From: Arthrobacter beigongshangensis
GTDB lineage: Bacteria > Bacillota > Bacilli > Bacillales_A > Planococcaceae
Length of the DNA stretch: 64,000 bases
Assembly: GCF_016820585.1 (NCBI RefSeq)
Contig: NZ_JADHDX010000004.1
Coordinates: 186,001 to 250,000 of the forward strand
Reading direction: 5' to 3'
Positions within the stretch are counted from its first letter, which is position 1; each line of letters starts with the position of its first letter. The notes under the pieces are model-generated. The model worked only from the letters and a program-made list of their open reading frames with translations. It was not told where the DNA came from and searched no databases. The translations under genes were made by a program, and so were the position numbers. Below are positions 3,616 through 29,129 of this stretch, piece after piece.

Positions 3616-4299
3616 ATGGATATGACGATTTTCATTGTTGAGGATGATGTCGCGATTTTTAATTCATTGAAAGAACGGCTTGGACAATGGTCACTTCATG
3701 TAACAGGACCAGATGATTTTCATGATGTTATGGGGGCTTTTGTTCAAGAGAAGCCGCATTTGGTGATGATGGATATTCAGTTGCCTGCCTACGATGGTTT
3801 TCATTGGTGCCGTGAAATTCGTGCAGTGTCGAAAGTGCCCATCATTTTTTTATCATCCCGTGATCATCCAATGGATATGGTCATGGCGATGAATATGGGA
3901 GCGGATGATTATATTCAGAAGCCGTTTCATACAGATGTGTTGCTGGCGAAAGTTCAAGCGATTTTACGACGTACCTATGCCTATGGGGAAGAGACGTCAG
4001 ATGTACTGGAATGGAATGGTGCAATCATTGATATGAAGCGTGGTATTATTCGAAAAGATGGGACGGAAGTGGAATTGACGAAAAACGAGTTTTTTATCTT
4101 GGCAGTACTCGTCCAATCGACGGATGAGATTGTATCGCGTGACGATTTGATTCGCAAACTGTGGGATGATGAACGGTTCGTCAATGACAATACGCTGACT
4201 GTCAACGTGACTCGATTGCGTCAAAAGCTTACAGAGCTTGAGCTTGGCGAAGCAATCGTTACGAAAAAAGGGCTCGGCTATATGGCGGTCACAGTTTAG
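3616..4299 (+). CDS. bceR: BceR-type OmpR-family response regulator
   Basis: Transcription factor of a Bce-type antimicrobial-peptide sensing module. The 227-residue protein has a receiver domain with acidic pocket EDD near residue 9, phospho-acceptor Asp53 (MMDIQLP) and the conserved Lys in QKPF near residue 102. The C-terminal winged-helix DNA-binding domain covers about 130-225 (LTKNEFFIL, then a TVNVTRLRQKL recognition region). A kinase gene follows after 18 bp and the exporter genes after that, the standard bceRSAB order. The likely target is the operator at 5413-5426. An in-frame ATG two codons later is an alternative start. Confidence 0.88.
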   Translation: MDMTIFIVEDDVAIFNSLKERLGQWSLHVTGPDDFHDVMGAFVQEKPHLVMMDIQLPAYDGFHWCREIRAVSKVPIIFLSSRDHPMDMVMAMNMGADDYIQKPFHTDVLLAKVQAILRRTYAYGEETSDVLEWNGAIIDMKRGIIRKDGTEVELTKNEFFILAVLVQSTDEIVSRDDLIRKLWDDERFVNDNTLTVNVTRLRQKLTELELGEAIVTKKGLGYMAVTV

Positions 4300-4317
4300 A
4301 AAGGGGCAACTATCCAC

Positions 4318-5355
4318 ATGTTCAGAAGTTATTTAAAAGATATGGCTAGCTGGATTAGTTTTTTCTTGTTGTCACTTGGCTTTGCAGATATGATAATTTG
4401 GCTTGATCAGGGAATCGACACGAAATTTTCGTCTGTGTTGTATGTGAATATTTTACTGATTATAGCCCTTATTCTATTTGTTTATTGGCGGTATAGAAAA
4501 GAAATGACGTTTACAAAAGAGTTAGTCACGTTCACAGGTGGTTCTACGATTGATTGGCATGAAGCATTGCCAGAAAGCCCTTTTAAGCGTGATGAAATAA
4601 CGAAGGAAGTGTTGCAAGTAGCGGCGTTATCCTTTTCAGAGAAATTGGCTACTATTAAACAGGCAAATGTTATTGAAAGTGATTATACCGCTGCCTGGAT
4701 ACATGAAGTGAAAGCGCCGCTTACCGCGATGAAACTACTAATTGACGCTCATCGAACAGATCCGGCTATTCGCAAACTGGAAGCGGAATGGCTACGCGTC
4801 TATCTGTTGATTGATCAACAATTGTATATATCTCGCCTGCCGACCCTCGAATCGGATTATCTTGTAGAAGCTACTGCTATTCAACGATTGGCCGCTGCGG
4901 AAGTACGGGAATTGGCTACATGGTGTATGGAGAAAAATATTGCTGTTGAATTTGAAGGGGAAGACGCGAGGGTAGTAACCGATGTTAAATGGAGTCGATT
5001 CATTATCCGTCAAATCTTGACGAATGCAGTAAAATATAGCAGTGCGGGCAGTACGATTTGCATCTTAACTAGTATCAAGTCAAATGGTAACGTTGCACTG
5101 ACCATAAAAGATGAAGGTCCAGGCATAAAATCGCACGATCTTCCCCGCATTTTCGATAAGGGATTTACTGGGGGGGCGGGACGACTTCAAAATGCCGCAA
5201 CAGGACTCGGACTTTATCTAGCAAAAACAGTGGCGGATAAGCTTGGCATCACTTTGGCTGCAGAGTCAATTGTGAATCAGGGTACGACGATAACGATGAT
5301 ATTTCCGACTGAAAATGAATTTGATAGTATACAAACGCCGAGTAAGAATGGCTAA
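4318..5355 (+). CDS. bceS: BceS-type intramembrane-sensing histidine kinase
   Basis: Membrane kinase of 345 residues. Two transmembrane helices (about residues 12-28 and 38-56) are separated by a very short loop, so there is no extracellular sensor. Kinases of this class read the flux state of the partner ABC exporter. The dimerisation box has phospho-accepting His129 ([11 protein letters not shown]), followed by N box (ILTNAVKYS), G1 (DEGPGI) and G2 ([10 protein letters not shown]) motifs of the ATPase domain. It is co-transcribed with bceR; a terminator at 5362-5394 separates the pair from bceAB. Confidence 0.88.
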
Positions 5356-16997: not shown

Positions 16998-17011
16998 TAG
17001 GGGAATCCCTA
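16998..17011 (+). promoter_or_regulatory. NreC-type box upstream of scdA
   Basis: TAGGG-gaat-CCCTA, a perfect match to the staphylococcal NreC consensus TAGGG-N4-CCCTA. It lies 24 bp before a -10 TATACT (17036-17041), which would be a second scdA promoter. The distance from box centre to -10 is the same as at the narG site. Confidence 0.75.
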
Positions 17012-17092: not shown

Positions 17093-17791
17093 ATGAGTCA
17101 ACTAACGCTTGAAACACAAGTTTGCGATATCGTCACAGCACTTCCACAAAGTGCGGATCTATTTAGGAGTCTTCGTATCGATTTTTGCTGCGGAGGAAAA
17201 ATTCCGTTGAAAGATGCAGCGGAAGACCGTAATTTAAATCCGGAAGAAGTATTGGTAAGTATTCAAAAAATAGAAGAAAAAAGAGAGCAGGTTGGAAGCG
17301 CACACCCGACTTCATTCGGCAATCGCACGCTTGTCTCTTACATTCAAGAAAATTACCATGCAGGTCTTCGTGAAGAATTGCCACAGCTTGCACCGTATAT
17401 TACGAAAGTCGTTAAGGTTCATGGAGAAAAGCATCCACATCTAGTGCGCATCCAAGAAATTTTCAAAGAATTACGTGCAGAGCTTTTAGAGCATACAGCT
17501 GACGAAGACAAAAATGTATTCCCTGTCATTCTAGAATTTTTAGAAAATCCGACACCAGAACTAAAAGAACAAGTTAAACCACATGTGATGGAATTAGAAG
17601 CAGAGCACGAGCATGCCGGTGAATTATTATTTGAAATTCGTGATCTCACAAATAACTACACTCCGCCAGCAGAAGCTTGTGGTACTTACCGTGTTGTCTA
17701 CGCTCGTCTTGCGCAGCTTGAAAAAGACACATTTGAACATGTCCACCTTGAAAATAACGTTCTATTCGATCGAGTACGTGCTGCAATCTAA
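17093..17791 (+). CDS. scdA: Iron-sulfur cluster repair di-iron protein (ScdA/YtfE/Ric)
   Basis: Cytoplasmic di-iron protein that repairs Fe-S clusters damaged by nitric oxide and oxidants. The 232-residue protein has the ScdA_N region with FCCGG near residue 30 (RIDFCCGGK) and a hemerythrin-like four-helix bundle whose ligands lie in ENYHAGLREELP, KVHGEKHP, HTADEDKNVFP, ELEAEHEHAG and FEHVHLENNVLF. RBS AGGGGAGG precedes ATG 17093. Its position next to narGHJI, and the Fnr and NreC-type boxes upstream, fit a role against NO formed during nitrate respiration. A terminator follows at 17804. Confidence 0.93.
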   Translation: MSQLTLETQVCDIVTALPQSADLFRSLRIDFCCGGKIPLKDAAEDRNLNPEEVLVSIQKIEEKREQVGSAHPTSFGNRTLVSYIQENYHAGLREELPQLAPYITKVVKVHGEKHPHLVRIQEIFKELRAELLEHTADEDKNVFPVILEFLENPTPELKEQVKPHVMELEAEHEHAGELLFEIRDLTNNYTPPAEACGTYRVVYARLAQLEKDTFEHVHLENNVLFDRVRAAI

Positions 17792-17914: not shown

Positions 17915-17928
17915 TAGGACTTTCCCTA
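17915..17928 (+). promoter_or_regulatory. NreC-type box upstream of narG
   Basis: TAGGA-cttt-CCCTA, nine of ten consensus positions of TAGGG-N4-CCCTA. A -10 TAGAAT at 17953-17958 lies 31.5 bp from the box centre, exactly the spacing seen at scdA. A more degenerate copy, GAGGG-aact-CCATA (17894-17907), lies just upstream, and half an Fnr site (TGTGA at 17908-17912) between them. Confidence 0.7.
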
Positions 17929-18032: not shown

Positions 18033-21000
18033 ATGAAGAAAAAAAGTGTACTGAAAAGTGGACTACGATACTTCAAACCCATTGAACGCTACTCAGGGAA
18101 TTGGTCAATTCTAGAAGAGAAAAGCCGAGATTGGGAGAATATGTACCGTCAACGTTGGTCGCATGACAAGGTAGTACGTACAACACATGGTGTCAACTGT
18201 ACCGGATCATGTAGTTGGAAAGTGTTTGTGAAAAACGGCATTATTACTTGGGAAAACCAACAGATTGATTACCCTTCTTGTGGTCCTGATATGCCTGAAT
18301 TTGAGCCTCGTGGATGCCCGCGTGGTGCTTCGTTTTCTTGGTATGAATATAGTCCACTTCGCGTGAAGTACCCTTATATTCGAGGGAAACTATGGCGGAT
18401 GTGGAGTCAAGCATTGACTGAAATGAAGGACCCTGTGAAAGCATGGGCAAGCATTGTGGAAGATCCCGAAAAAGCGAATGAATACAAAAAAGCCCGTGGA
18501 AAAGGTGGACATGTCCGTGTCAATTGGCGCGATGCTACGATGCTTATTTCCGCACAACTCATTTATACAATCCGAAAATATGGTCCAGACCGCATCGCCG
18601 GGTTTACACCGATTCCGGCAATGTCGATGGTTAGTTATGCGTCAGGTGCACGTTTCATCTCCCTTTTGGGTGGGGAAATGCTTAGTTTTTATGACTGGTA
18701 TGCAGATTTACCGCCAGCTTCTCCACAAATTTGGGGTGAGCAGACAGACGTTCCTGAATCGAGTGACTGGTTTAATGCAGGATATATTATTATGTGGGGA
18801 TCTAACGTACCACTGACACGAACACCAGATGCACACTTCATGACGGAAGTTCGTTACAAAGGTACAAAGGTTGTATCTGTTGCACCGGATTATGCAGAAA
18901 GTGTGACACATGCTGATGATTGGATTGCTGCAAATCCTGGTACGGACGCAGCCGTTGCACAAGCGATGACGCATGTTATTTTAGATGAATTCTATGAGCA
19001 ACGGAAAGAGCCAATGTTCCTCAATTATGCGAAGCAATATACGGATATGCCGTTCTTAATTATGCTGGATGAGCATGAAGGGTCATACAAAGCGGGTCGT
19101 TTCTTAAGGGCTAGTGACCTTGGTAGCGCTTCAGAACACGCAGAATGGAAACCGGTTATTTTCGATGAAACAACGGACGAAATCATCGTTCCGAACGGTA
19201 CAATGGGGCAGCGTTGGGAAGAGGATGCTAAATGGAATCTAATTCTTGATAACGCAGATGGGACGCGCGTTGAACCTGCATTATCTGTTGCAGATCATGG
19301 TGCAGAGTGGACAGAAATGGTCTTCCCTTACTTTGACAATATTGCGAATGGGACATTTAAGCGTCCGATTCCTACGAAAAAAGTAACATTTGCAGATGGG
19401 ACAGAAAGACTTGTCGCAACTGTTTACGATTTAATGCTGAGTCAATATGGCGTGCGTCGTATCGGCAGTGATTTAGAAGCGACTGGCTATGACGATGTTG
19501 ACTCCATTTATACACCAGCTTGGCAACAAAAAATCACTAACGTTAAACCGGAGCTTGTGACACAAATTGCACGTGAATTTGCACAGAACTCCCTCGATAC
19601 GGGTGGTCGTTCCATGATTATTATGGGGGCCGGTATTAATCACTGGTTTAATAGTGACACGATTTATAGATCAATCTTAAATCTAGTAACACTGACAGCT
19701 TCCCAAGGTGTCAATGGCGGCGGCTGGGCACATTATGTTGGTCAGGAAAAATGTCGTCCGATTGAAGGGTGGAGCACGATTGCCTTTGCGAGAGACTGGC
19801 AAGCGCCACCACGTCTACAAAATGCAACGTCATTCTTCTACTATGCAACGAATCAGTGGAAGTACGAGGAAGCTGGAGCAGAAGTGCTAATGTCACCAAC
19901 TGCTGGAAAAGCGCGTTATGAGCATCCAGCTGACTATAATGTCTTGGCTGCAAGACTAGGTTGGCTACCATCCTATCCGCAGTTTAATAAGAATAGTTTA
20001 CTATTTGCTGAAGAAGCAGCGGCATTAGGGAAAACGACAACACAAGAAATTGTCGGCCACACACTTGAACAATTAAAGTCGGGCGACTTGCAATTCGCTG
20101 TAGAAGACCCTGACGCACCGGAAAACTTCCCACGCTCACTATTCATTTGGCGTTCTAACTTAGTTTCTAGTTCTGCAAAAGGACAGGAATACTTCATGAA
20201 ACACCTTTTCGGAGCATCTGATGGTTTGCTAGCTTCTCCAAATGATGAGGTAAAACCAGAAGAAATGGTATGGCGTGATGAAGTGGAAGGGAAGCTTGAT
20301 TTACTTGTTGCACTGGATTTCCGTATGACAGCAACTCCGATGTATGCAGATATCGTTCTTCCAGCAGCAACTTGGTATGAGAAAGTGGATCTTTCATCAA
20401 CGGATATGCACCCCTTTGTGCATCCATTTAACCCGGCAGTAGACCCACTATGGGAATCACGTTCGGACTGGGATATTTATCGCTCGATTGCGCAGACGTT
20501 CTCGGAAATGGCGAAAGTTCATCTGCCAGGCGTTTACAAGGATCTTGTCACGACTCCACTGGCTCATGATTCTATTCAGGAAATTGCTCAGCCTTATGGC
20601 GAAGTGAAAGACTGGAGAAAAGGCGAAGTCGAAGCGATTCCAGGGAAAACAATGCCTGGTATGACAATTGTCGAGCGTGATTATACGAAAGTTTACGATA
20701 AATACGTCACTCTCGGTCCTTTATTATCAACAGGAAAAGTCGGTGCGCATGGCGTTAGCTTCTCTGTTGCAGAAGAATACGAAATGATGAAAGGCATCAA
20801 CGGCACTTATTTTGATGAAACCATCAAAAATGGATTGCCGAAATTGCATACAGCGAAACATGCTGCTGAAGCAATGCTGACATTATCATCTGCAACAAAT
20901 GGTCGAGTATCGCAAAAGGCATATGAAGCAGCAGAACAAGATTCAGGCGTTGAGTTGAAAGATATTTCGGCAGACAGAGCTGCGGAACGTTTTACGTTTG

Positions 21001-21719
21001 CTAGTATTACCGCACAGCCTCGTGAAGTTATTCCGACACCCGTGTTTAGTGGATCTAATAAGATGGGACGTCGATATTCACCATTTACAACGAATATCGA
21101 GCGACTGGTGCCATTCAGAACACTGACAGGAAGACAGCATTTCTATATTGATCACGAGCTATTCCTTGATTTCGGAGAAGCATTGCCGGTCTATAAACCA
21201 ACATTACCACCAATGGTATTTGGACCACGTGATAAGCAAATTATCGGCGGACAGGATTCTCTTGTACTAAGATATTTGACACCGCATGGTAAGTGGAATA
21301 TTCACTCGACCTATCAAGATAACCAGCATATGCTAACGCTATTCCGTGGGGGTCCTACAGTATGGATTTCCAACGAGGATGCGGAAGAGCATGATATTGA
21401 CGATAACCAGTGGTTGGAGGTTTACAATCGAAACGGTGTTGTAACGGCACGGGCAGTTGTCAGTCATAGAATGCCAAAAGGTACGATGTTCATGTATCAC
21501 GCACAAGACAAGCATATTCAAGTACCTGGCTCTGAAATTACGGAAGAACGCGGCGGTAGTCATAATGCGCCTACACGTATTCATATGAAACCAACACAAA
21601 TGGTCGGTGGTTACGCGCAGTTAAGTTATGGATTTAACTATTATGGACCAATCGGAAATCAGCGGGATGTCTACGTCGCAGTCCGCAAGATGAAGGAGGT
21701 AAACTGGCTTGAAGATTAA
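18033..21719 (+). CDS. narG: Respiratory nitrate reductase, alpha subunit
   Basis: Catalytic molybdenum subunit of the membrane-bound quinol:nitrate oxidoreductase, facing the cytoplasm. The 1228-residue length equals B. subtilis NarG. The N-terminus has the unusual FS0 cluster motif HGVNCTGSCSW and then YPSCGPDMPEFEPRGCPRG, in the region that holds the molybdenum-ligating Asp in this family. Long conserved segments follow, including the molybdopterin guanine dinucleotide binding parts. ATG 18033 has AAAGGAGTG upstream. It overlaps narH. The NreC-type box at 17915 should drive the operon. The cofactor is supplied by the mo cluster at 29130-35312. Confidence 0.98.
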   Translation: MKKKSVLKSGLRYFKPIERYSGNWSILEEKSRDWENMYRQRWSHDKVVRTTHGVNCTGSCSWKVFVKNGIITWENQQIDYPSCGPDMPEFEPRGCPRGASFSWYEYSPLRVKYPYIRGKLWRMWSQALTEMKDPVKAWASIVEDPEKANEYKKARGKGGHVRVNWRDATMLISAQLIYTIRKYGPDRIAGFTPIPAMSMVSYASGARFISLLGGEMLSFYDWYADLPPASPQIWGEQTDVPESSDWFNAGYIIMWGSNVPLTRTPDAHFMTEVRYKGTKVVSVAPDYAESVTHADDWIAANPGTDAAVAQAMTHVILDEFYEQRKEPMFLNYAKQYTDMPFLIMLDEHEGSYKAGRFLRASDLGSASEHAEWKPVIFDETTDEIIVPNGTMGQRWEEDAKWNLILDNADGTRVEPALSVADHGAEWTEMVFPYFDNIANGTFKRPIPTKKVTFADGTERLVATVYDLMLSQYGVRRIGSDLEATGYDDVDSIYTPAWQQKITNVKPELVTQIAREFAQNSLDTGGRSMIIMGAGINHWFNSDTIYRSILNLVTLTASQGVNGGGWAHYVGQEKCRPIEGWSTIAFARDWQAPPRLQNATSFFYYATNQWKYEEAGAEVLMSPTAGKARYEHPADYNVLAARLGWLPSYPQFNKNSLLFAEEAAALGKTTTQEIVGHTLEQLKSGDLQFAVEDPDAPENFPRSLFIWRSNLVSSSAKGQEYFMKHLFGASDGLLASPNDEVKPEEMVWRDEVEGKLDLLVALDFRMTATPMYADIVLPAATWYEKVDLSSTDMHPFVHPFNPAVDPLWESRSDWDIYRSIAQTFSEMAKVHLPGVYKDLVTTPLAHDSIQEIAQPYGEVKDWRKGEVEAIPGKTMPGMTIVERDYTKVYDKYVTLGPLLSTGKVGAHGVSFSVAEEYEMMKGINGTYFDETIKNGLPKLHTAKHAAEAMLTLSSATNGRVSQKAYEAAEQDSGVELKDISADRAAERFTFASITAQPREVIPTPVFSGSNKMGRRYSPFTTNIERLVPFRTLTGRQHFYIDHELFLDFGEALPVYKPTLPPMVFGPRDKQIIGGQDSLVLRYLTPHGKWNIHSTYQDNQHMLTLFRGGPTVWISNEDAEEHDIDDNQWLEVYNRNGVVTARAVVSHRMPKGTMFMYHAQDKHIQVPGSEITEERGGSHNAPTRIHMKPTQMVGGYAQLSYGFNYYGPIGNQRDVYVAVRKMKEVNWLED

Positions 21720-23316
21720 AGCACAAGTTGCAATGGTTATGAATCTTGACAAATGTATTGGCTGTCATACGTGTAGTGTCACATGTAAAACTACTTGGAC
21801 GAACCGTGAAGGTGCCGAGTATATGTGGTTTAACAACGTAGAAACAAAGCCGGGAATTGGCTATCCAAAACGTTGGGAAGACCAAGAGCTTTATAAAGGC
21901 GGCTGGAAACTGAACAATGGAAAATTGGAATTGAAGTCGGGTTCTAAACTATCGAAAATTGCATTAGGTAAAATTTTCTATAATCCAGACATGCCGGAAA
22001 TGAAGGATTATTACGAGCCATGGACTTATGACTATGAAAAATTAACGATGGCAGGTGATAGTAAGCATACACCTGTTGCACGTGCAAAATCAGTTGTTTC
22101 AGGGGAATATATGGACCTGGAATGGGGACCGAACTGGGAAGATCAGTTAGCAGGGGCACATATTACTGGACCGACAGATCCGAATATCCAAAAGATTGAA
22201 GAGGATATAAAATTCAACTTTGAACAGGCATTCATGATGTACTTGCCACGTCTTTGCGAGCACTGTTTAAATCCAAGCTGTGTGGCATCTTGTCCTTCTG
22301 GCGCAATCTATAAGCGTGATGAGGATGGGATTGTCCTTGTTGACCAAGACGCATGTCGCGGATGGCGTTATTGTATGACGGGTTGCCCGTACAAGAAGGT
22401 GTACTTCAACTGGAAAACAAATAAAGCAGAGAAATGTACATTCTGCTTCCCACGTATTGAATCTGGTCTACCAACGGTTTGTTCTGAAACATGTACGGGT
22501 CGTATTCGTTATTTGGGTGTTCTTCTTTATGACGCTGACCGTGTACTAGAAGCAGCTTCGACACCGGATGAAAAAGATTTGTACAAAGCACAATGTGATT
22601 TGTTCTTAGACCCAAATGATCCAGCGGTTATAGAGCAAGCACGAAAAGATGGCATATCGGAAGAGTGGATTGAGGCTGCACAAAACTCGCCCGTTTATAA
22701 ACTAGCAATCGAGTATAAGCTGGCATTCCCACTTCATCCAGAATACAGAACGCTACCGATGGTTTGGTATGTGCCACCACTTAGCCCAATCATGAACTAT
22801 TTTGAAGGGAAAGATTCTATCAAAAATCCTGATATGATTTTCCCAGCAATTGATGAAATGCGTATACCGATTCAATACCTAGCGAATATGTTGACAGCTG
22901 GAGATGCCGAAACTGTGAAGCAAGGCTTGCAAAGAATGGCTATGATGCGTTCTTATATGCGTGCCATGTCTTCTGGGAAAGAATTTGATGAGTCGCGTCT
23001 AGAGCGGGTTGGACTTACGGCCCAACAAACAAAGCAGATGTATCGTTTGCTTGCGATTGCAAAATATGAGGATCGCTTTGTCATTCCGACTGCTCATAAA
23101 GAAGGTCATATGAATATGTATCGTTCTCAAGGATCTGCTGGTTATACAGATATGGCAGGAGATTACGCAATGGATCCATCATCATCACCAAGTCAATTTA
23201 GCTACACGGGTATGGGCGAAAATGGCGATTGTGATGGTTGTAGTCCAGCAGTACCAACGAAAACAGGTAAGGAAATTTATGAAGAGAACTTCTACGGGGG
23301 GATCTGGCGTGATTGA
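21709..23316 (+). CDS. narH: Respiratory nitrate reductase, beta (iron-sulfur) subunit
   Basis: Electron-transfer subunit with four Fe-S clusters linking NarI haem to NarG. The 535-residue protein shows the ferredoxin-type clusters CIGCHTCSVTCKTTW (residue 17 on), CEHCLNPSCVASCPSG, CRGWRYCMTGCPYKK (with the W that marks the 3Fe-4S site) and CTFCFPRIESG. TTG 21709 overlaps the narG 3' end, and AAGGAGG precedes it. The C-terminus is about 45 residues longer than usual, with a DCDGCSPAVP segment. Confidence 0.97.
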   Translation: MKIKAQVAMVMNLDKCIGCHTCSVTCKTTWTNREGAEYMWFNNVETKPGIGYPKRWEDQELYKGGWKLNNGKLELKSGSKLSKIALGKIFYNPDMPEMKDYYEPWTYDYEKLTMAGDSKHTPVARAKSVVSGEYMDLEWGPNWEDQLAGAHITGPTDPNIQKIEEDIKFNFEQAFMMYLPRLCEHCLNPSCVASCPSGAIYKRDEDGIVLVDQDACRGWRYCMTGCPYKKVYFNWKTNKAEKCTFCFPRIESGLPTVCSETCTGRIRYLGVLLYDADRVLEAASTPDEKDLYKAQCDLFLDPNDPAVIEQARKDGISEEWIEAAQNSPVYKLAIEYKLAFPLHPEYRTLPMVWYVPPLSPIMNYFEGKDSIKNPDMIFPAIDEMRIPIQYLANMLTAGDAETVKQGLQRMAMMRSYMRAMSSGKEFDESRLERVGLTAQQTKQMYRLLAIAKYEDRFVIPTAHKEGHMNMYRSQGSAGYTDMAGDYAMDPSSSPSQFSYTGMGENGDCDGCSPAVPTKTGKEIYEENFYGGIWRD

Positions 23317-23878
23317 TCTGAAGAAATTGTACGAAGTAAAGCAAACTTTTGGTTTCTTTGCAGATCAGTTGTCTTATCCTGAAAAGCTTACATTTCATCC
23401 GTCGGTATTGGAGGAGTCATTTGACTCTTCCGACCCGGCTTATGCTGATATTAAAGTATTTTGGGATTTGATGCATGATTATAGTCTTGATGAAATTCAG
23501 GAGATGTATACGTATACGTTTGACTTTCAAACAGAAACAACATTATTCATGACCTATGTGAAGTATGCAGATGCTAAAGAACGTGGTCAGATGTTGGCGA
23601 AGCTGAAAGTATTGTATGAAATGTTTGGTTTGAATATGCCAGATGGAGAACTATCTGATTTTTTACCGCTCATGTGTGAGTTCATTTATGCAGCTGAGTG
23701 GTTAGGTGATCCAAGAGCACAACAAAGTTTTTCGATGCTTCTAGCGGTTATGGAGGATGGATCGTACAATTTGATGAAAGCACTTGAGAAGCATAATAGC
23801 CCTTACTTCCATTTGATTAAGGGGATGAGGGAAACATTTAAGTCTTGTATCCGTCAGGAGGAACCAGCCAATGACTAA
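23309..23878 (+). CDS. narJ: Nitrate reductase assembly chaperone
   Basis: Dedicated cytoplasmic chaperone for NarG cofactor insertion and membrane docking; not part of the final enzyme. The 189-residue all-helical protein fits the NarJ/TorD family (FGFFADQLSYP near the start, YTFDFQTETTLFMTYVKYAD, LGDPRA). I use GTG 23309, behind GGGGGG and overlapping the narH stop; the frame is open 87 bp upstream but that is narH. It overlaps narI by 8 bp. Confidence 0.93.
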   Translation: MIDLKKLYEVKQTFGFFADQLSYPEKLTFHPSVLEESFDSSDPAYADIKVFWDLMHDYSLDEIQEMYTYTFDFQTETTLFMTYVKYADAKERGQMLAKLKVLYEMFGLNMPDGELSDFLPLMCEFIYAAEWLGDPRAQQSFSMLLAVMEDGSYNLMKALEKHNSPYFHLIKGMRETFKSCIRQEEPAND

Positions 23879-24551
23879 TCAGTTTTTATGGGTCATTTTC
23901 CCTTATGTTTGTATAGTGACATTTATTGTGGGACATATATTTAGATATCGTAACGACAAATTTGGTTGGACGGCAAAATCTAGTGAATTTATCGAGAAAA
24001 AGCAATTAATGATTGGAAGTGTGTTATTCCATATAGGAATCATTCCCGTTATTGCCGGTCATGTTGTAGGACTTGGTATCCCTAAGGAATGGACTCGTGC
24101 ACTTGGTGTGAGTGACCATTTGTACCATATGGGAGCTGTTTGGGTTGGAGGATTCTTTGGATTTGTCACGCTTGCAGGTATGCTTATTTTGACGGCTAGA
24201 CGTTTTATGCTGAAAAATGTTCGTAAGTTGTCGTCTGCTTCTGATTTAATCGTCAATACATTACTATTACTGATTGTATTTTTAGGGATTTACAGTGTGG
24301 TTGCAACAACTGCTGCACAGCCTGATTTTGATTATCGTGATTCGATTTCGGTGTGGTTCCGTTCGTTGCTTATTTTACGTCCTGAGGCAAATTTGATGTC
24401 AGTTGTTCCAGTCGCTTTTCAGTTACATGTATTATCTGGATTTCTTATTTTTGCAATGTGGCCTTTTACAAGGCTTGTTCACGTTTGGAGTGTTCCGTTG
24501 AATTATGTTGGAAGAAGCTATATCCTATATAGAAAGAATAAAGTGAATTGA
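23871..24551 (+). CDS. narI: Respiratory nitrate reductase, gamma (cytochrome b) subunit
   Basis: Membrane anchor of 226 residues with five hydrophobic helices that carries two b haems and oxidises menaquinol. Histidines at the ends of helices (FHIGIIPVIAGHVVG and FQLHVLSGFLIFAMWPFTRLVHVW regions) match the haem ligands of NarI. ATG overlaps the narJ stop and GGAGG lies upstream. A terminator at 24559 ends the operon. Confidence 0.96.
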   Translation: MTNQFLWVIFPYVCIVTFIVGHIFRYRNDKFGWTAKSSEFIEKKQLMIGSVLFHIGIIPVIAGHVVGLGIPKEWTRALGVSDHLYHMGAVWVGGFFGFVTLAGMLILTARRFMLKNVRKLSSASDLIVNTLLLLIVFLGIYSVVATTAAQPDFDYRDSISVWFRSLLILRPEANLMSVVPVAFQLHVLSGFLIFAMWPFTRLVHVWSVPLNYVGRSYILYRKNKVN

Positions 24552-24603: not shown

Positions 24604-25068
24604 ATGGACGAATTAAATGGTTTTAAATACCAAGAAGAAATCGAATGTTTAAGAGCCCAATTTGGTTTCGATTTTGTTGGAGTGGCGCTTGTACAATCAG
24701 CTGAACGCCATTTTGAACTAAAATGGAAGTTTGTAACGGGCAATCAAAGTGAGCGTTATCGAAGGATAGTTTTGCAAACCGGAAAAGGTGTTGCCGGACA
24801 TGTTTTCAAGACGGGTAAGCCGTTTCTGGTGGAGGATGTGGAAGAAACGCTCGAGGAGAGAAACTTGTACAATTATCCAATTGTCGTTTCGGAAGGATTA
24901 AAGAGTTTCGGTGCAATTCCTTTATATAAATATAATTGGGTTAAAGGTGTATTACTCGTCGGATATCGTGACGGGAAGAAATTATCATCACAAGAATTTG
25001 AGAATTTTAAAGAAGTAATCGGTTCGAATTTTGGTCCGTTTTACAACAGGGAGAAGGTGAAGGATTGA
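24604..25068 (+). CDS. nreA: NreA, GAF-domain nitrate receptor
   Basis: A single GAF domain of 154 residues. In Staphylococcus carnosus NreA binds nitrate and, when empty, inhibits the NreB kinase. Visible features are GVAGHVFKTGKPFLVEDV and a terminal NFGPFYNR. The gene starts the nreABC cluster directly behind narGHJI as in staphylococci, and it overlaps nreB. The name rests on length, domain and this gene order. Confidence 0.85.
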   Translation: MDELNGFKYQEEIECLRAQFGFDFVGVALVQSAERHFELKWKFVTGNQSERYRRIVLQTGKGVAGHVFKTGKPFLVEDVEETLEERNLYNYPIVVSEGLKSFGAIPLYKYNWVKGVLLVGYRDGKKLSSQEFENFKEVIGSNFGPFYNREKVKD

Positions 25069-26120
25069 TACGCCTAGCAGATTTTCAGTTATCTGATTTG
25101 TTACTGAAGATGTATAACAATTCAGCTGAACCTATCTTCTTTTTTGATCGTTATCGAAAGGTGATTTCGATGAATAGCGCTGCCGAGCTTATTCTAGATC
25201 CTGAAGTACTTGACCGTATAGCGGTGGGGGATAATGAGGCCATTTGTTTGTCTTGTAAAGGGTATACAAGTGAGCAGGAGCTGCAAACATGCTTGGCGTG
25301 TTATATCAAAAACCCGCAACAGGATTTAAGCTCTTTCCAGGTATACTTGGATACGAAAGGCAAAGGAGTTACTCCGTATACGGGTAGCTACCAGACCATT
25401 GATGAAGAAAATGGTATCCGTGTTTTCATGCTTCGCGATTTGACCAAGCAATATAAAACGCAGGAATCACTAAACCAAAAAATGATGATGAAAAATATTA
25501 TAAAAGCACAGGAAGATGAACGGAAAAGGATTTCTCGGGAGCTTCATGATAGTGTGGCACAGGAAATGCTGAGCTCGTTGGTTGAATTACGTGTGTTGAA
25601 ATATATGAATATCGATACAGAGGTAATGAAGAAAGTTCAACAGACAGAAGGCTCACTGATGAGACTATTAGATGATATTCGTCACCTTTCCGTTGAATTA
25701 CGCCCTGCGACCTTAGATGATTTGGGGCTTGAGGCAGCGTTTAGAACACATTTTAAATGGATTGAAAAAAATTATGGGTTAGTTGTCCACTTTACTTCTG
25801 AGCTTCAGTCAAAAAGATATGGCGGGGAAATTGAAACGGTTGTGTATCGAATTTGCCAAGAGGCTGTGTTTAACGCGTTGAAATACGCAAATACAGATGA
25901 AATTACCGTTCGTCTATTTGAGAAGGGTGGCTACTTGAAATTGCATGTTGTTGATGAAGGGCAAGGTTTTGATTTGAATGCCAATGATCCGAGGGGTACT
26001 GGACTAGGTTTGTATGGCATGCGGGAAAGAGCTGCGCTAGTTGGAGGGGATATTATCATCCTTTCTGAATTAGGGAAAGGCACTATTGTTCGACTAGAAA
26101 TACCATTAACAAAGGAGTGA
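25065..26120 (+). CDS. nreB: NreB, oxygen-sensing Fe-S histidine kinase
   Basis: Cytoplasmic kinase of 351 residues. An N-terminal PAS domain holds four cysteines at 61, 64, 76 and 79 (CLSC and CLAC). The spacing CX2C-X11-CX2C equals that of the oxygen-labile 4Fe-4S cluster of staphylococcal NreB. The HisKA_3 dimerisation box has His161 ([11 protein letters not shown]), and the ATPase domain ends with [13 protein letters not shown]. No transmembrane segment is seen. TTG 25065 overlaps the nreA stop with GGAGAAGG upstream. Oxygen would destroy the cluster and stop phosphorylation of NreC. Confidence 0.92.
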
Positions 26121-26127
26121 TCGACGA

Positions 26128-26775
26128 TTGAAAATCATAATTGCAGATGATCACGCAGTCGTTCGTAGTGGGTTTATGCACATTTTAAACTTTCAAAACG
26201 ATATGGAAGTCGTGGCAACTGCCGCAGATGGCTTGGAGGCATATAATTTAGTCGCCAAGCATCGTCCTGATCTGCTACTGATGGATTTAAGTATGCCTCC
26301 CGGGGAAAGCGGTCTCATTGCAACGGGGAAAATTAAAGAGGATTTTCCGGAAACTAAAATTCTTATTTTAACGATGTATGACGATGAGGAATATTTATTT
26401 CACGTCTTGAAAAATGGGGCATCAGGTTATGTCTTGAAAAACTCTCCAGACGAAGAATTATTCGATGCAATTCGTATTGTCCATGAAGGGGGGACGTACA
26501 TCCACCCAACAATGGCGACGTCACTCGTCCGAGAGTTCGTCAAAAAAGATGGAGATGGCATAGAAACAGACCCATACAAAATTCTGTCTAAGCGTGAAAT
26601 CGAAGTTTTACCACTTGTAGCAAAAGGGTATGGCAATAAAGAAATTGCAGAAAAACTATATATATCGGTTAAAACAGTGGAAGCACATAAATCTAAAATT
26701 ATGGAAAAGCTTCAGCTGAAAAGTCGTCCTGAACTCGTTGAATATGCATTGAAGAAAAAGTTTCTAAACTTTTAA
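26128..26775 (+). CDS. nreC: NreC, NarL/LuxR-family response regulator
   Basis: Response regulator of 215 residues: receiver domain with ADDH at residues 6-9, phospho-acceptor Asp53 (LMDLSMP) and Lys in VLKNS near 105, then a LuxR-type helix-turn-helix ([20 protein letters not shown] to [14 protein letters not shown]) at about 150-205. TTG 26128 has AAAGGAG upstream. It should bind the TAGGG-N4-CCCTA sites found before scdA, narG and narK. Confidence 0.92.
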
Positions 26776-26793: not shown

Positions 26794-27321
26794 GTGGCGA
26801 AAGAGAAGAAGTTCAAGTTTGATTTACCTGCATTGCGTGTACTAGAAAATGAGCATAATTATTTGTTGCATGTAATGGAAGGATGGCATTTAATCGTCCT
26901 TGCTTTTGAACGCGATATGTACACGCTTGAAGAAGGGCATGAGGCATTACAGACTCTTCGAAAGCTAATAATCGAGTTTATTGACCCATTGAAAAATCAT
27001 ACGGAGAAAGAGGAGGAATTCCTTTTTCCCTTACTAGCTAAGTACGTAGGTACTGAACAAGGACCTGTTAATGCAACTGAAGAAGAACATGAAGAAATCG
27101 ATGCGTATATTGGTCATTTCCTGCATCATACTCGGGGAGATTTAACTAGCCTGACGATGCAAAATATGAAGGATGTCGTTCGGGATGCGGGGGAAGCGTT
27201 CGAGGTGATTACAGTCCATTTCGTGAAGGAAGAGTCGATTCTGTTCCCAATGGTTAACAATATTTTACGAATTGAAGAGCAGGATAAGCTTTACGAGCAG
27301 CTTTATACGTCTATTCTGTGA
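26794..27321 (+). CDS. Hemerythrin-domain protein
   Basis: A 175-residue four-helix protein with the hemerythrin ligand pattern: ENEHNYL near residue 19, HTEKEEEFLFP near 69, EEEHEEI near 95 and HFVKEESILFP near 145. Such proteins bind a di-iron centre and O2 or NO. It follows nreC by 18 bp and probably shares its transcript, next to narK and the NO-repair gene scdA, so a role in O2/NO handling during nitrate respiration is inferred. The start is GTG 26794 behind AGGTGAGG. Confidence 0.8.
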   Translation: MAKEKKFKFDLPALRVLENEHNYLLHVMEGWHLIVLAFERDMYTLEEGHEALQTLRKLIIEFIDPLKNHTEKEEEFLFPLLAKYVGTEQGPVNATEEEHEEIDAYIGHFLHHTRGDLTSLTMQNMKDVVRDAGEAFEVITVHFVKEESILFPMVNNILRIEEQDKLYEQLYTSIL

Positions 27322-27335
27322 CAAAGGTTAGTGGT

Positions 27336-27349
27336 TAGGGATTTCCCTA
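27336..27349 (+). promoter_or_regulatory. NreC-type box upstream of narK
   Basis: TAGGG-attt-CCCTA, a perfect consensus match. A good -10 TACAAT lies at 27395-27400, 52.5 bp from the box centre. This is exactly 21 bp (two helical turns) further than at scdA and narG, so the helical face is kept. Confidence 0.75.
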
Positions 27350-27443: not shown

Positions 27444-28958
27444 ATGATTAGAAAAGCACAGTTGCCGTTGCAGACGGCGAACTTAGTAGTCGGTTTCATG
27501 GTATGGGTACTCATATCTTCACTGCTGCCATTCATTACAGAAGATATTGCAATTCCAGCGGAAAAACTTGCTATTGTAACGGCTGTGCCAGTCGTGTTAG
27601 GGTCTATTCTTAGAATTCCGTTAGGCTACTATGCGAATGTATTTGGTGCCAGAGTAATCTTTTTAGTAAGTTTCATATTATTGCTATTTCCAGTGTTCTA
27701 TATAAGTGAAGCGTCAACGTTTACAGATTTAATTATTGGTGGAACATTACTGGGAATTGGTGGAGCTGTGTTTTCCGTAGGGGTTACATCATTACCGAAG
27801 TATTACCCGAAAGAGAAGCATGGTCTCGTCAACGGAATTTATGGAATGGGGAATGTGGGGACAGCGGTATCCACATTCGCAGCACCTGTCATTGCCACAC
27901 AAGTCGGTTGGTCGATGACTGTTAAATTTTATCTGATTATACTATTGGTTTTTGCGGCATTAAACTTCATATTTGGTGATCGTAAAGAAGTGAAAGTGAA
28001 AACACCTATTGTAGAGCAAATTAAAGGTGTCTATAAAAATGAGAAGCTGTGGTTCTTCTCGTTATTCTATTTCATCACGTTTGGTTCATTCGTTGCCTTT
28101 ACGATATTCTTGCCAAACTTTTTGGTCACTTTTTTCGAGTTAGATAAAGTGGATGCAGGGATGCGGACAGCTGGATTTATTGTGGTGGCGACATTCCTTC
28201 GCCCGGTTGGCGGATGGCTTGCAGATAAATTCCAACCATTGTTTCTGTTAATGGGTGTTTTTTCCGTTTTAACATTTGCATCATTTTTACTTGCATTTTC
28301 ACCGTCGATTCTGTTGTATACAATTGCAAGTATGTTGATTGCGACTTCAGCTGGAATTGGGAACGGGGTTATTTTTAAACTTGTGCCTTTCTATTTCAAC
28401 AAGCAGGCAGGTATTGTCAACGGAATTGTATCTATGATGGGTGGTTTAGGTGGATTTTTCCCGCCATTATTATTATCTGCCATCTTTACATTGACAGGAT
28501 CCTATTCGATTGGTTTCATGGCATTTTCTCAAGTGGCGCTTGCAAGTTTAGTGCTTGTCGTTTGGCTCTATTATATGGACCGCGTCTCGAGTGCTACGGA
28601 AGTGTTTAATTCGACTGGACAAGGAATTCTCGTAACGAATCCTGCGGGTACCATTGAGTTAGTGAATCCGGCTTTTACAAAGCTCACAGGCTATACTCCA
28701 GAAGAAGTAGTTGGAAGAAACCCGAATATACTTAGCTCTGGCAGACAATCCTCAGAGTTCTACACGACGATGTGGAGTCAGATTGGGCAAGAGGGCTCTT
28801 GGCAAGGAAAGGTTTGGAATAAGAAGAAAAATGGAGAAGAATATTTAGAGTTTCTGTCCATCAATGCGGTGACAGATGACTCTGGAGAACCAATCCGATA
28901 CGTTGGGACGTTCAGCGATATAACGCCTCCAGGCGAAGAGGGCAGCCGGTCAAATTGA
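27444..28958 (+). CDS. narK: Nitrate/nitrite MFS transporter (NarK type) with C-terminal PAS domain
   Basis: Membrane protein of 504 residues. Residues 1 to about 380 form a twelve-helix major-facilitator transporter of the NarK/NarT type, with nitrate-signature glycine-rich segments (GIGGAVFSVGVTSLPKYYP near 110, GIVNGIVSMMGGLGGFFPP near 330). Residues about 391-494 are a complete PAS domain with PAC motif (NPAFTKLTGYTPEEVVGRNP; KKNGEEYLEFLSINAV; YVGTFSDIT). NarK proteins normally end after the last helix (about 390 residues), so this is a fusion. The single reading frame has no break. Its last codons lie inside the hairpin at 28938. It is preceded by an NreC-type box. Confidence 0.9.
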   Translation: MIRKAQLPLQTANLVVGFMVWVLISSLLPFITEDIAIPAEKLAIVTAVPVVLGSILRIPLGYYANVFGARVIFLVSFILLLFPVFYISEASTFTDLIIGGTLLGIGGAVFSVGVTSLPKYYPKEKHGLVNGIYGMGNVGTAVSTFAAPVIATQVGWSMTVKFYLIILLVFAALNFIFGDRKEVKVKTPIVEQIKGVYKNEKLWFFSLFYFITFGSFVAFTIFLPNFLVTFFELDKVDAGMRTAGFIVVATFLRPVGGWLADKFQPLFLLMGVFSVLTFASFLLAFSPSILLYTIASMLIATSAGIGNGVIFKLVPFYFNKQAGIVNGIVSMMGGLGGFFPPLLLSAIFTLTGSYSIGFMAFSQVALASLVLVVWLYYMDRVSSATEVFNSTGQGILVTNPAGTIELVNPAFTKLTGYTPEEVVGRNPNILSSGRQSSEFYTTMWSQIGQEGSWQGKVWNKKKNGEEYLEFLSINAVTDDSGEPIRYVGTFSDITPPGEEGSRSN

Positions 28959-28980
28959 CCGGAAGCCCTCGCTTCATTTT
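28938..28980 (+). terminator. Terminator overlapping the narK stop codon
   Basis: Stem GAGGGC / GCCCTC enclosing CCGGTCAA-A-TTGACCGG. The narK stop codon lies inside the inner stem, so ribosomes would reach into the hairpin. The following tract (GCTTCATTTTA) is only moderately T-rich. Confidence 0.6.
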
Positions 28981-29108
28981 ATCTTCAATCGGTGGGTCGC
29001 CCACCGATTGAAGATAAAGCCTCCGGCGGATGTCACAGATTTTGAAGGGAGTTAATTGCGCAAGCGCAATTCAAAATCTGGACGCAATCACGCCAAGGCG
29101 TAATTGAT
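28981..29108. repeat. Dispersed intergenic repeat element with three hairpins
   Basis: Three successive inverted repeats: ATCTTCAATCGGTGGG / complement at 28981-29015 (perfect 16-bp stem, loop TCG); CAGATTTTGAA at 29036-29046 with TTCAAAATCTG at 29070-29080 around a GCGCAAGCGC core; and CAATCACGCC-AA-GGCGTAATTG at 29085-29106. The part from GCCTCCGGCGGATGTCAC onward resembles a repeat I associate with Bacillales intergenic regions. It is non-coding and lies between narK and moeB. Confidence 0.6.
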
Positions 29109-29129
29109 AATGAGTAGAGGGTGATCTAT

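Follow-up and report, generated by a model that had tools for sequence, protein, structure and literature searches.

A NarK-type nitrate transporter of Bacilli fused to a PAS domain of the NifL/MmoS flavin class, a possible redox gate on nitrate uptake

We found that a gene lying beside narGHJI and nreABC in a Planococcaceae genome (Arthrobacter beigongshangensis, assembly GCF_016820585.1, contig NZ_JADHDX010000004.1) encodes a NarK-type MFS transporter and a C-terminal PAS domain as one real, intact product, and that this fusion is common in Bacilli and not peculiar to the source strain. Combining alignments, structure models and phylogeny, our preferred reading is that NarK-PAS is a nitrate transporter with its own flavin-PAS redox gate, coupled to the transporter through the helix of TM12, for which we estimate a probability of about 0.45. 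All coordinates refer to the window, that is, the whole stretch of 64,000 nucleotides that was analysed (positions 186,001 to 250,000 of the contig, forward strand).

RESULTS

One intact gene encodes transporter and PAS domain

The narK-PAS frame runs uninterrupted from ATG to TGA over 504 codons, and its product matches Pfam MFS_1 at residues 15-339 (E 4.4e-37) and PAS_9 at residues 393-494 (E 5.6e-18), which bears out the sequence-only reading of a single frame joining a NarK-type transporter to a C-terminal PAS domain. An AlphaFold2 model built on a 46-row alignment (mean pLDDT 88.7, pTM 0.76) places a helical bundle before a PAS fold, with helix 355-390 unbroken as TM12 continues into the PAS N-cap. 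Upon searching the PDB with the whole model by Foldseek, NarK/NarU structures took ranks 1-8 at 22-23% identity; entries 4u4w, 4jr9 and 4iu8, which we take to be the E. coli nitrate/nitrite exchangers NarK/NarU, have the same fold and both substrate-site arginines aligned with NarK-PAS, but no PAS domain. NarK-PAS also differs in staying below the cut-off of the NCBIfam NarK model TIGR00886, which it matches at residues 13-337 (E 2e-60) with 204.8 bits against a required 311.7. As three scanned relatives (217.0, 214.2 and 226.3 bits) and all 21 genomes of one further scan likewise missed this cut-off, it appears to have been set for other NarKs. R57 and R253 of NarK-PAS align with arginines of solved NarU, presumably the substrate-site pair numbered R89/R305 in E. 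coli NarK, and are kept in 155/155 rows, fused and PAS-less alike. Since both are kept, the protein should transport, and we regard it as a predicted nitrate (nitrate/nitrite) transporter.

Table 1. Features of the narK-PAS gene and its locus, in window coordinates.
Feature	Position	Strand	Remarks
narK-PAS gene	27444..28958	+	504 aa plus stop; intact in relatives
NarK-type MFS transporter part, residues 2-377	27447..28574	+	MFS_1; Foldseek match to 4u4w/4u4v (NarK)
Continuous predicted helix 355-390, TM12 into PAS N-cap	28506..28613	+	AlphaFold2; length-invariant joint
PAS domain, residues 387-494	28602..28925	+	PAS_9; closest solved chains 3ewk, 2gj3
W444	28773..28775	+	at the F-alpha Trp position of flavin PAS domains (NifL W87 by count)
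N459	28818..28820	+	aligned with NifL N102 by count
ScdA/RIC-like (iron-sulfur repair) gene	17093-17791		name by eye
narGHJI respiratory nitrate reductase	18033..24551	+	names inferred from sequence and order
nreA (GAF nitrate sensor)	24604..25068	+	NF038250 E 1.4e-42, 144.8 bits, below cut-off 175
nreB histidine kinase	25065..26120	+	CX2CX11CX2C present
nreC response regulator	26128..26775	+	name from context
Hemerythrin-domain protein	26794..27321	+	between nreC and narK-PAS
Predicted NreC-type box TAGGGATTTCCCTA	27336..27349	+	exact TAGGGN4CCCTA; 95-108 bases before narK-PAS start codon
Predicted NreC-type box	17915..17928	+	1 mismatch; upstream of narG
Predicted NreC-type box	16998..17011	+	exact; upstream of ScdA/RIC-like gene

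The PAS domain resembles the flavin-binding PAS of NifL and MmoS

By sequence, the solved chains nearest to the PAS domain were 3ewk (4e-21), which we take to be MmoS, and PAS1 of NifL (2gj3, 1e-15). When residues 380-504 were modelled on their own (mean pLDDT 91.6), 2gj3, the FAD-holding PAS1 of NifL, was the first Foldseek match (rmsd 1.2, TM 0.87/0.91), with mostly LOV flavoproteins among the further matches shown. W444 and N459 align with flavin-pocket positions of NifL. According to excerpts of one study (PMC10468136), NifL and MmoS are both counted as FAD redox sensors, the Trp of F-alpha is the primary FAD determinant, and the Asn is conserved in the NifL cluster (cluster 4), while excerpts of another (PMC12540587) describe for AxDGC2 and RmcA an enzyme activity set by the redox state of FAD, with both FAD and redox response lost in Asn mutants. 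Judged from alignment and model, the predicted fold of the PAS and its two marker residues match the NifL/MmoS flavin class, and it seems rather likely that the PAS of NarK-PAS binds flavin.

The pocket is not that of NifL throughout. Of the NifL pocket residues Ser39, Glu70, Tyr110 and His133 (excerpts of PMC12540587), the Tyr is kept as Y467 in 113/119 fused sequences, whereas S39 corresponds to L396 (Leu in 94/119), E70 to P427 (Pro in 118/119) and H133 to F490 (Phe in 118/119; numbering by alignment), and three of five NifL hydrogen-bond residues are replaced in NarK-PAS. The PAS2 domain of P. aeruginosa PA0285 has the same Trp and Asn, yet it bound no FAD in MST as reported in part of PMC10874727, so these markers are not sufficient for flavin. 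Among 15 other PAS relatives compared by eye, the Trp is present in 15/15 and the Asn in 14/15, indicating that the pair marks a PAS class and not a role in NarK. LOV photoreceptors carry their photoactive Cys in a GRNCRFLQ motif; a LOV photoreceptor was rejected, because the place of this Cys (Ala in the aligned C85A variant) is taken by P427, the near-invariant Pro.

Outside NarK, the most similar PAS sequences among those found sit on GGDEF-EAL, GGDEF and SpoIIE-type proteins, and the sensor was probably borrowed from a regulator of such a type. Those of the PAS-GGDEF-EAL architecture (DibA, AxDGC2, RmcA type) share as much as 53% identity in the PAS region but have c-di-GMP turnover as their output, whereas that of NarK-PAS would be transport; the PAS domains of NifL and MmoS, which have the fold, Trp and Asn in common with NarK-PAS, sit in kinase-like signalling proteins.

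The fusion is common in Bacilli

A search for fused architectures and their taxonomic range, as the sequence-only reading had proposed, found the fused gene at full length (starting at residue 1-6 and reaching at least 494) in at least 65 places in 64/398 Bacilli genomes with 11 family codes, a lower bound with three candidates scored per genome. In the source's own family, 29/121 genomes had a full fused match. The best 80 of 298 relatives, ranked with a preference for long matches and hence not giving a rate, all had one frame through residue 494 or beyond (frames of 496-570 codons), the nearest named relative among them being a Sporosarcina at 87% identity, which makes it probable that the source genome belongs to this genus. 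With one frame recurring in these relatives, the fusion is not a product of chance or misassembly. Four of 299 genomes of the phylum carried a full fused match, all of them Bacilli. Within 72,556 plasmids (230 records with a match), one record among the matches listed had the full fusion, from Niallia taxi, with 63% identity across residues 2-497, and no PAS fusion outside Bacillota was found among them. The restriction to Bacilli thus refers to the 398 Bacilli genomes, the 299 phylum genomes, the plasmids and the best 80 of 298 relatives.

To our knowledge, characterised NarK proteins have no PAS domain. The earlier statement that known NarK and NarT proteins lack one holds for these characterised proteins, but Bacilli commonly carry the fused form; nor is the arrangement peculiar to this strain, since it is widespread in the class and probably ancestral to its subfamily.

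Four plasmid records among the matches listed reached at least 80% query coverage, namely Niallia taxi and three others (H3-H5) whose alignments go no further than residue 453. The annotation of H4 and H5 gives MFS proteins of about 905 and 916 aa ahead of nitrate reductase alpha, and from size and gene order both look like double NarKs of the kind known as NarK1-NarK2 in Paracoccus; H3 carries no annotation. In one Bacilli genome (G248; L127, L136), two copies of the fused NarK-PAS gene lie 5.9 kb apart from start to start, and a PAS-less subfamily member is present as well. In another (G095), a truncated NarK-PAS piece (L159, about 3980-4696, minus strand; residues 265-503 in a 251-codon frame) lies ~6 kb downstream of the intact narK-PAS.

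The PAS domain is probably ancestral in the subfamily and is conserved

For a tree of the transporter part only, 155 rows were reduced to 142 by leaving out 13 whose transporter part was identical to another; two partial frames (L132_1, L133_1) and a fragment (L159_2) had been left out before alignment. In this tree, 118 fused and 11 PAS-less rows form one group (99, starred), and 13 distant PAS-less NarKs fall outside it. The presence or absence of the PAS requires 6 changes, at least 5 of them forced by starred branches; in a careful tree of 53 rows, chosen for spread and not at random, all 6 changes are forced by starred branches, with 6-6 across bootstrap trees. When the distant NarKs serve as outgroup, fused rows make up the first two branches and the PAS-less L136 comes third, under a root that is insecure given the long outgroup branch (2.52), while the number of changes is independent of the root. 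Because the first two branches are fused under this rooting, the simplest reading is that the PAS is probably ancestral in the subfamily, gained once and then lost about five times. PAS-less members fall into L134 (f3), L135 (f19), L136 (f27), L137-138 (f14) and L139-144, the f9 group. Rows of f9 show 50-58% identity and have the order nar-nreABC-narK with a PAS-less NarK in 6/6 loci examined, and this lineage looks like staphylococcal NarT, a line that would have lost its PAS. Three-frame scans of 1500 bases behind the PAS-less genes of 24 rows found no PAS remnants (best 2.2 bits).

A tree of the PAS alone (39 fused and 15 other rows, likewise chosen for spread and not at random), being short, neither supported nor rejected the NarK PAS as one clade (p-AU 0.363). 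A single origin of the PAS is argued for by the gap-free joint between TM12 and PAS: none of the 119 distinct fused sequences has an indel at 361-390 or 375-395, compared to 84/119 in the tail at 495-504. Positions 381, 383, 387 and 388 are hydrophobic in 90-100% of sequences. The fixed length of the joint further suggests a mechanical coupling of the PAS to TM12.

Ten residues are invariant in 119/119 fused sequences (W444, N459, Y440, W453, N408, F411, I404, I473, G455, T398). Mean pairwise identity across the 119 is 76% for the MFS part, 63% for the PAS, 56% for the linker and 12% for the tail, the PAS thus evolving faster than the transporter. Pairwise dN/dS for the PAS ranged over 0.03-0.13 in the 11/16 pairs that gave a value, three of which are unsure with dS >1.3. 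By these substitution measures, the PAS is under purifying selection and not retained by mere inertia.

DISCUSSION

A putative redox gate and its alternatives

That the PAS might sense redox state or a ligand and so gate transport had been suggested at the outset, and a gate still seems the best reading of the sequences and models, with its redox form put at somewhat under even odds. The PAS would hold FAD, and the oxidised flavin (in air) and reduced flavin (in anoxia) would give two PAS states, each passed on through the helix from TM12 to the N-cap so as to shift the transporter cycle. Nitrate would then be let in only while the electron-transport chain is in its reduced state; we guess that the reduced state is the open one, this being the likeliest polarity, and that the electrons would come from the quinone pool or the cytosol. 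With that polarity, the PAS would be what senses oxygen or redox state when nitrate uptake is inhibited in these bacteria. Transcription by NreABC or Fnr would form a slow layer of control and the PAS a fast, post-translational one, and the sensor would have been lost on the way to the NarT-like f9 proteins.

Excerpts of PMC3445494 describe nitrate uptake by respiratory NarK as inhibited by oxygen through the redox state, by a mechanism left unexplained there. In the same excerpts, NarK2 of M. tuberculosis is itself the control point, a redox-controlled protein of 12 helices without a known sensor, and redox control hence does not need a PAS. Also counting against the gate is that the PAS was lost about five times with the transporter kept each time (53-row tree). 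Considering 13 distant fused genomes besides our own, chosen for spread and not at random, NarG was missing at E 1e-100 in 5/13, which speaks against a purely respiratory role. In one of these (G349; L122, 7583-12790), a NasC-like reductase (886 bits versus a cut-off of 1100) adjoins narK-PAS, with an Fe-S protein, a Crp/Fnr-type regulator and, by eye, a Rieske-like protein also alongside. Owing to these two observations, NarK-PAS probably brings in nitrate for reduction in the cytoplasm generally, and not for Nar alone. We consider doubtful the more far-reaching proposal that NarK-PAS is the very sensor behind the redox/oxygen inhibition of nitrate uptake, in which a membrane-tethered flavin PAS would read the quinone pool or cytosol and lock the transporter via TM12, as an old device of Bacilli with staphylococcal NarT as its stripped-down descendants.

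Among the alternatives, an unlikely one that nonetheless survives best is that the PAS binds no cofactor and serves dimerisation or folding, pairing NarK subunits or stabilising the protein and sensing nothing. PAS domains typically form dimers, and the oligomer state of NifL PAS1 depends on its flanking helices (excerpts of PMC3466315); the losses of the PAS without loss of the transporter and the FAD-free PAS2 of PA0285 (PMC10874727, in part) point the same way. However, the invariance of W444, W453, N459, Y440, N408 and F411 in all 119 sequences goes, in our judgement, beyond what an interface needs, and W444 and N459 sit on flavin-pocket positions of NifL.

Rather improbable, in our estimate, is that the PAS gates transport in response to nitrate, nitrite, NO, a haem-bound gas or a metabolite instead of flavin redox. 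Many PAS domains hold ligands other than flavin, and the replacement of three of five NifL pocket residues, including the Pro at the place of Glu70, would fit such a ligand. The invariant Trp/Asn pair argues against it, as does the finding that nearly all closest solved structures, 3lyx set apart, are flavin proteins.

The PAS could also leave transport alone and, as in a transceptor, report the transport or redox state to a partner such as NreB/NreA, a function that the sequence-only reading had considered for NreB. While nreA, nreB and nreC lie upstream on the same strand in 68/78 named loci with a full upstream flank, an NreA match was missing at E 1e-5 in 7/13 of the distant fused genomes. 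Two genomes (G209, with L131/L145, and G228) have two nar clusters each: the NreA match adjoins the one whose NarK is distant and PAS-less, and narK-PAS is found at the other, with no NreA nearby. As NreA is missing from so many fused genomes and the six f9 loci keep nreABC with a PAS-less NarK, signalling to NreA/NreB is disfavoured as the general job of the PAS, and we deem the transceptor reading quite improbable. An accidental fusion, an error of sequencing or decaying readthrough can be dismissed as the origin of NarK-PAS, being refuted by the single frame in the best 80 of 298 relatives, the full-length gene in 64/398 Bacilli genomes and the low dN/dS of the PAS.

Relation to described systems

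Fusions of MFS transporters to regulatory domains at the C-terminus (CBS, cNBD, UspA, PAS) have been reviewed, with MFS-PAS named as a class in 2023 and Willson et al. 2019 cited on MFS fusions, although the excerpts of this review give no transporter family, cofactor or test for the PAS (PMC10710835). The NarK1-NarK2 of Paracoccus is also a fused NarK, but is joined to a second transporter and not to a sensor (PMC5217062, in part). Staphylococcal NarT, which is controlled by NreABC, lies within the narK-PAS subfamily if the f9 rows are taken as NarT, and unlike narK-PAS has neither a PAS nor a PAS remnant downstream. A narK of 1500 bp in B. azotoformans and a narK3 of 1503 bp in B. bataviensis, both of NarK2 type, are probably the fused form judging from their length, and the word PAS is absent from the excerpts of the paper that lists them (PMC3475470). 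The fusion is thus a common variant; as for a characterised one, no description of a NarK-PAS protein was found in the open-licence papers searched. Two kinds of candidate description were rejected: the one 'PAS domain' in the excerpts of PMC8139620 is a reference on NreB, and co-mentions of NarK and PAS in excerpts of anammox papers stem from the surname van de Pas-Schoonen. Both the transporter family and the type of add-on sensor are known; as far as we have seen, their combination has no published functional test.

Oxygen inhibition of nitrate uptake has been called general, with the sensor, for NarK2, stated to be unidentified (PMC3445494, in part), and a flavin PAS on the transporter would be a natural candidate for an oxygen/redox sensor of nitrate uptake in Bacilli. 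NarK-PAS makes oxygen control of nitrate uptake testable by cutting or mutating a single domain. Should the gate work, it would offer a natural redox-controlled MFS transporter that is useful for mechanism and engineering alike. Furthermore, the PAS-less NarT beside NreABC may poorly represent the control of nitrate uptake in many Bacilli.

Locus, predicted boxes and a downstream repeat

The gene order is ScdA/RIC-like gene, narGHJI, nreABC, hemerythrin-domain gene, narK-PAS and ThiF-family (MoeB-like) gene, followed by others resembling molybdenum-cofactor genes (several names by eye), which agrees with the sequence-only reading in placing nreABC (24604-26775) next to narK-PAS. No Pfam family matched the NarJ-like protein. 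The cysteines of NreB are spaced CX2CX11CX2C, as in the Fe-S motif of S. carnosus NreB, and a hemerythrin-domain match lies upstream of narK-PAS in 55/78 named loci.

An NreC-type box had been noted before narK-PAS, and it is exact with respect to TAGGGN4CCCTA, which we assume to be the NreC box form. With two mismatches allowed, 10 boxes were found versus 10.57 expected in the window, which is chance level, so that only exact or near-exact boxes at gene starts carry weight. The three predicted boxes of Table 1 head the ScdA/RIC-like, narGHJI and narK-PAS units, which suggests one regulon. Across fused loci (300 bases upstream, at most one mismatch, 20 shuffles; related rows are not independent), NreC-type boxes occurred in 18/71 loci with nreB (shuffled mean 0.55) and 2/20 without (0.0), the remaining 53/71 loci with nreB having none at this threshold, and Fnr-like boxes occurred in 5/20 loci without nreB (shuffled mean 0.1) and 7/71 with it (0.55).

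Downstream of narK-PAS, a perfect 20-pair hairpin (28977-29019, z -10.9) lies between the stop codon and a structured repeat of ~93 bases (29017-29109, plus strand) directly 3' of the gene. This repeat had no Rfam match and is possibly a REP/MITE-like element; it folds strongly on both strands (z -3.9 and -6.0) and has at least 39 further copies scattered through the genome at 86-97% identity (40 of 194 candidates scored).
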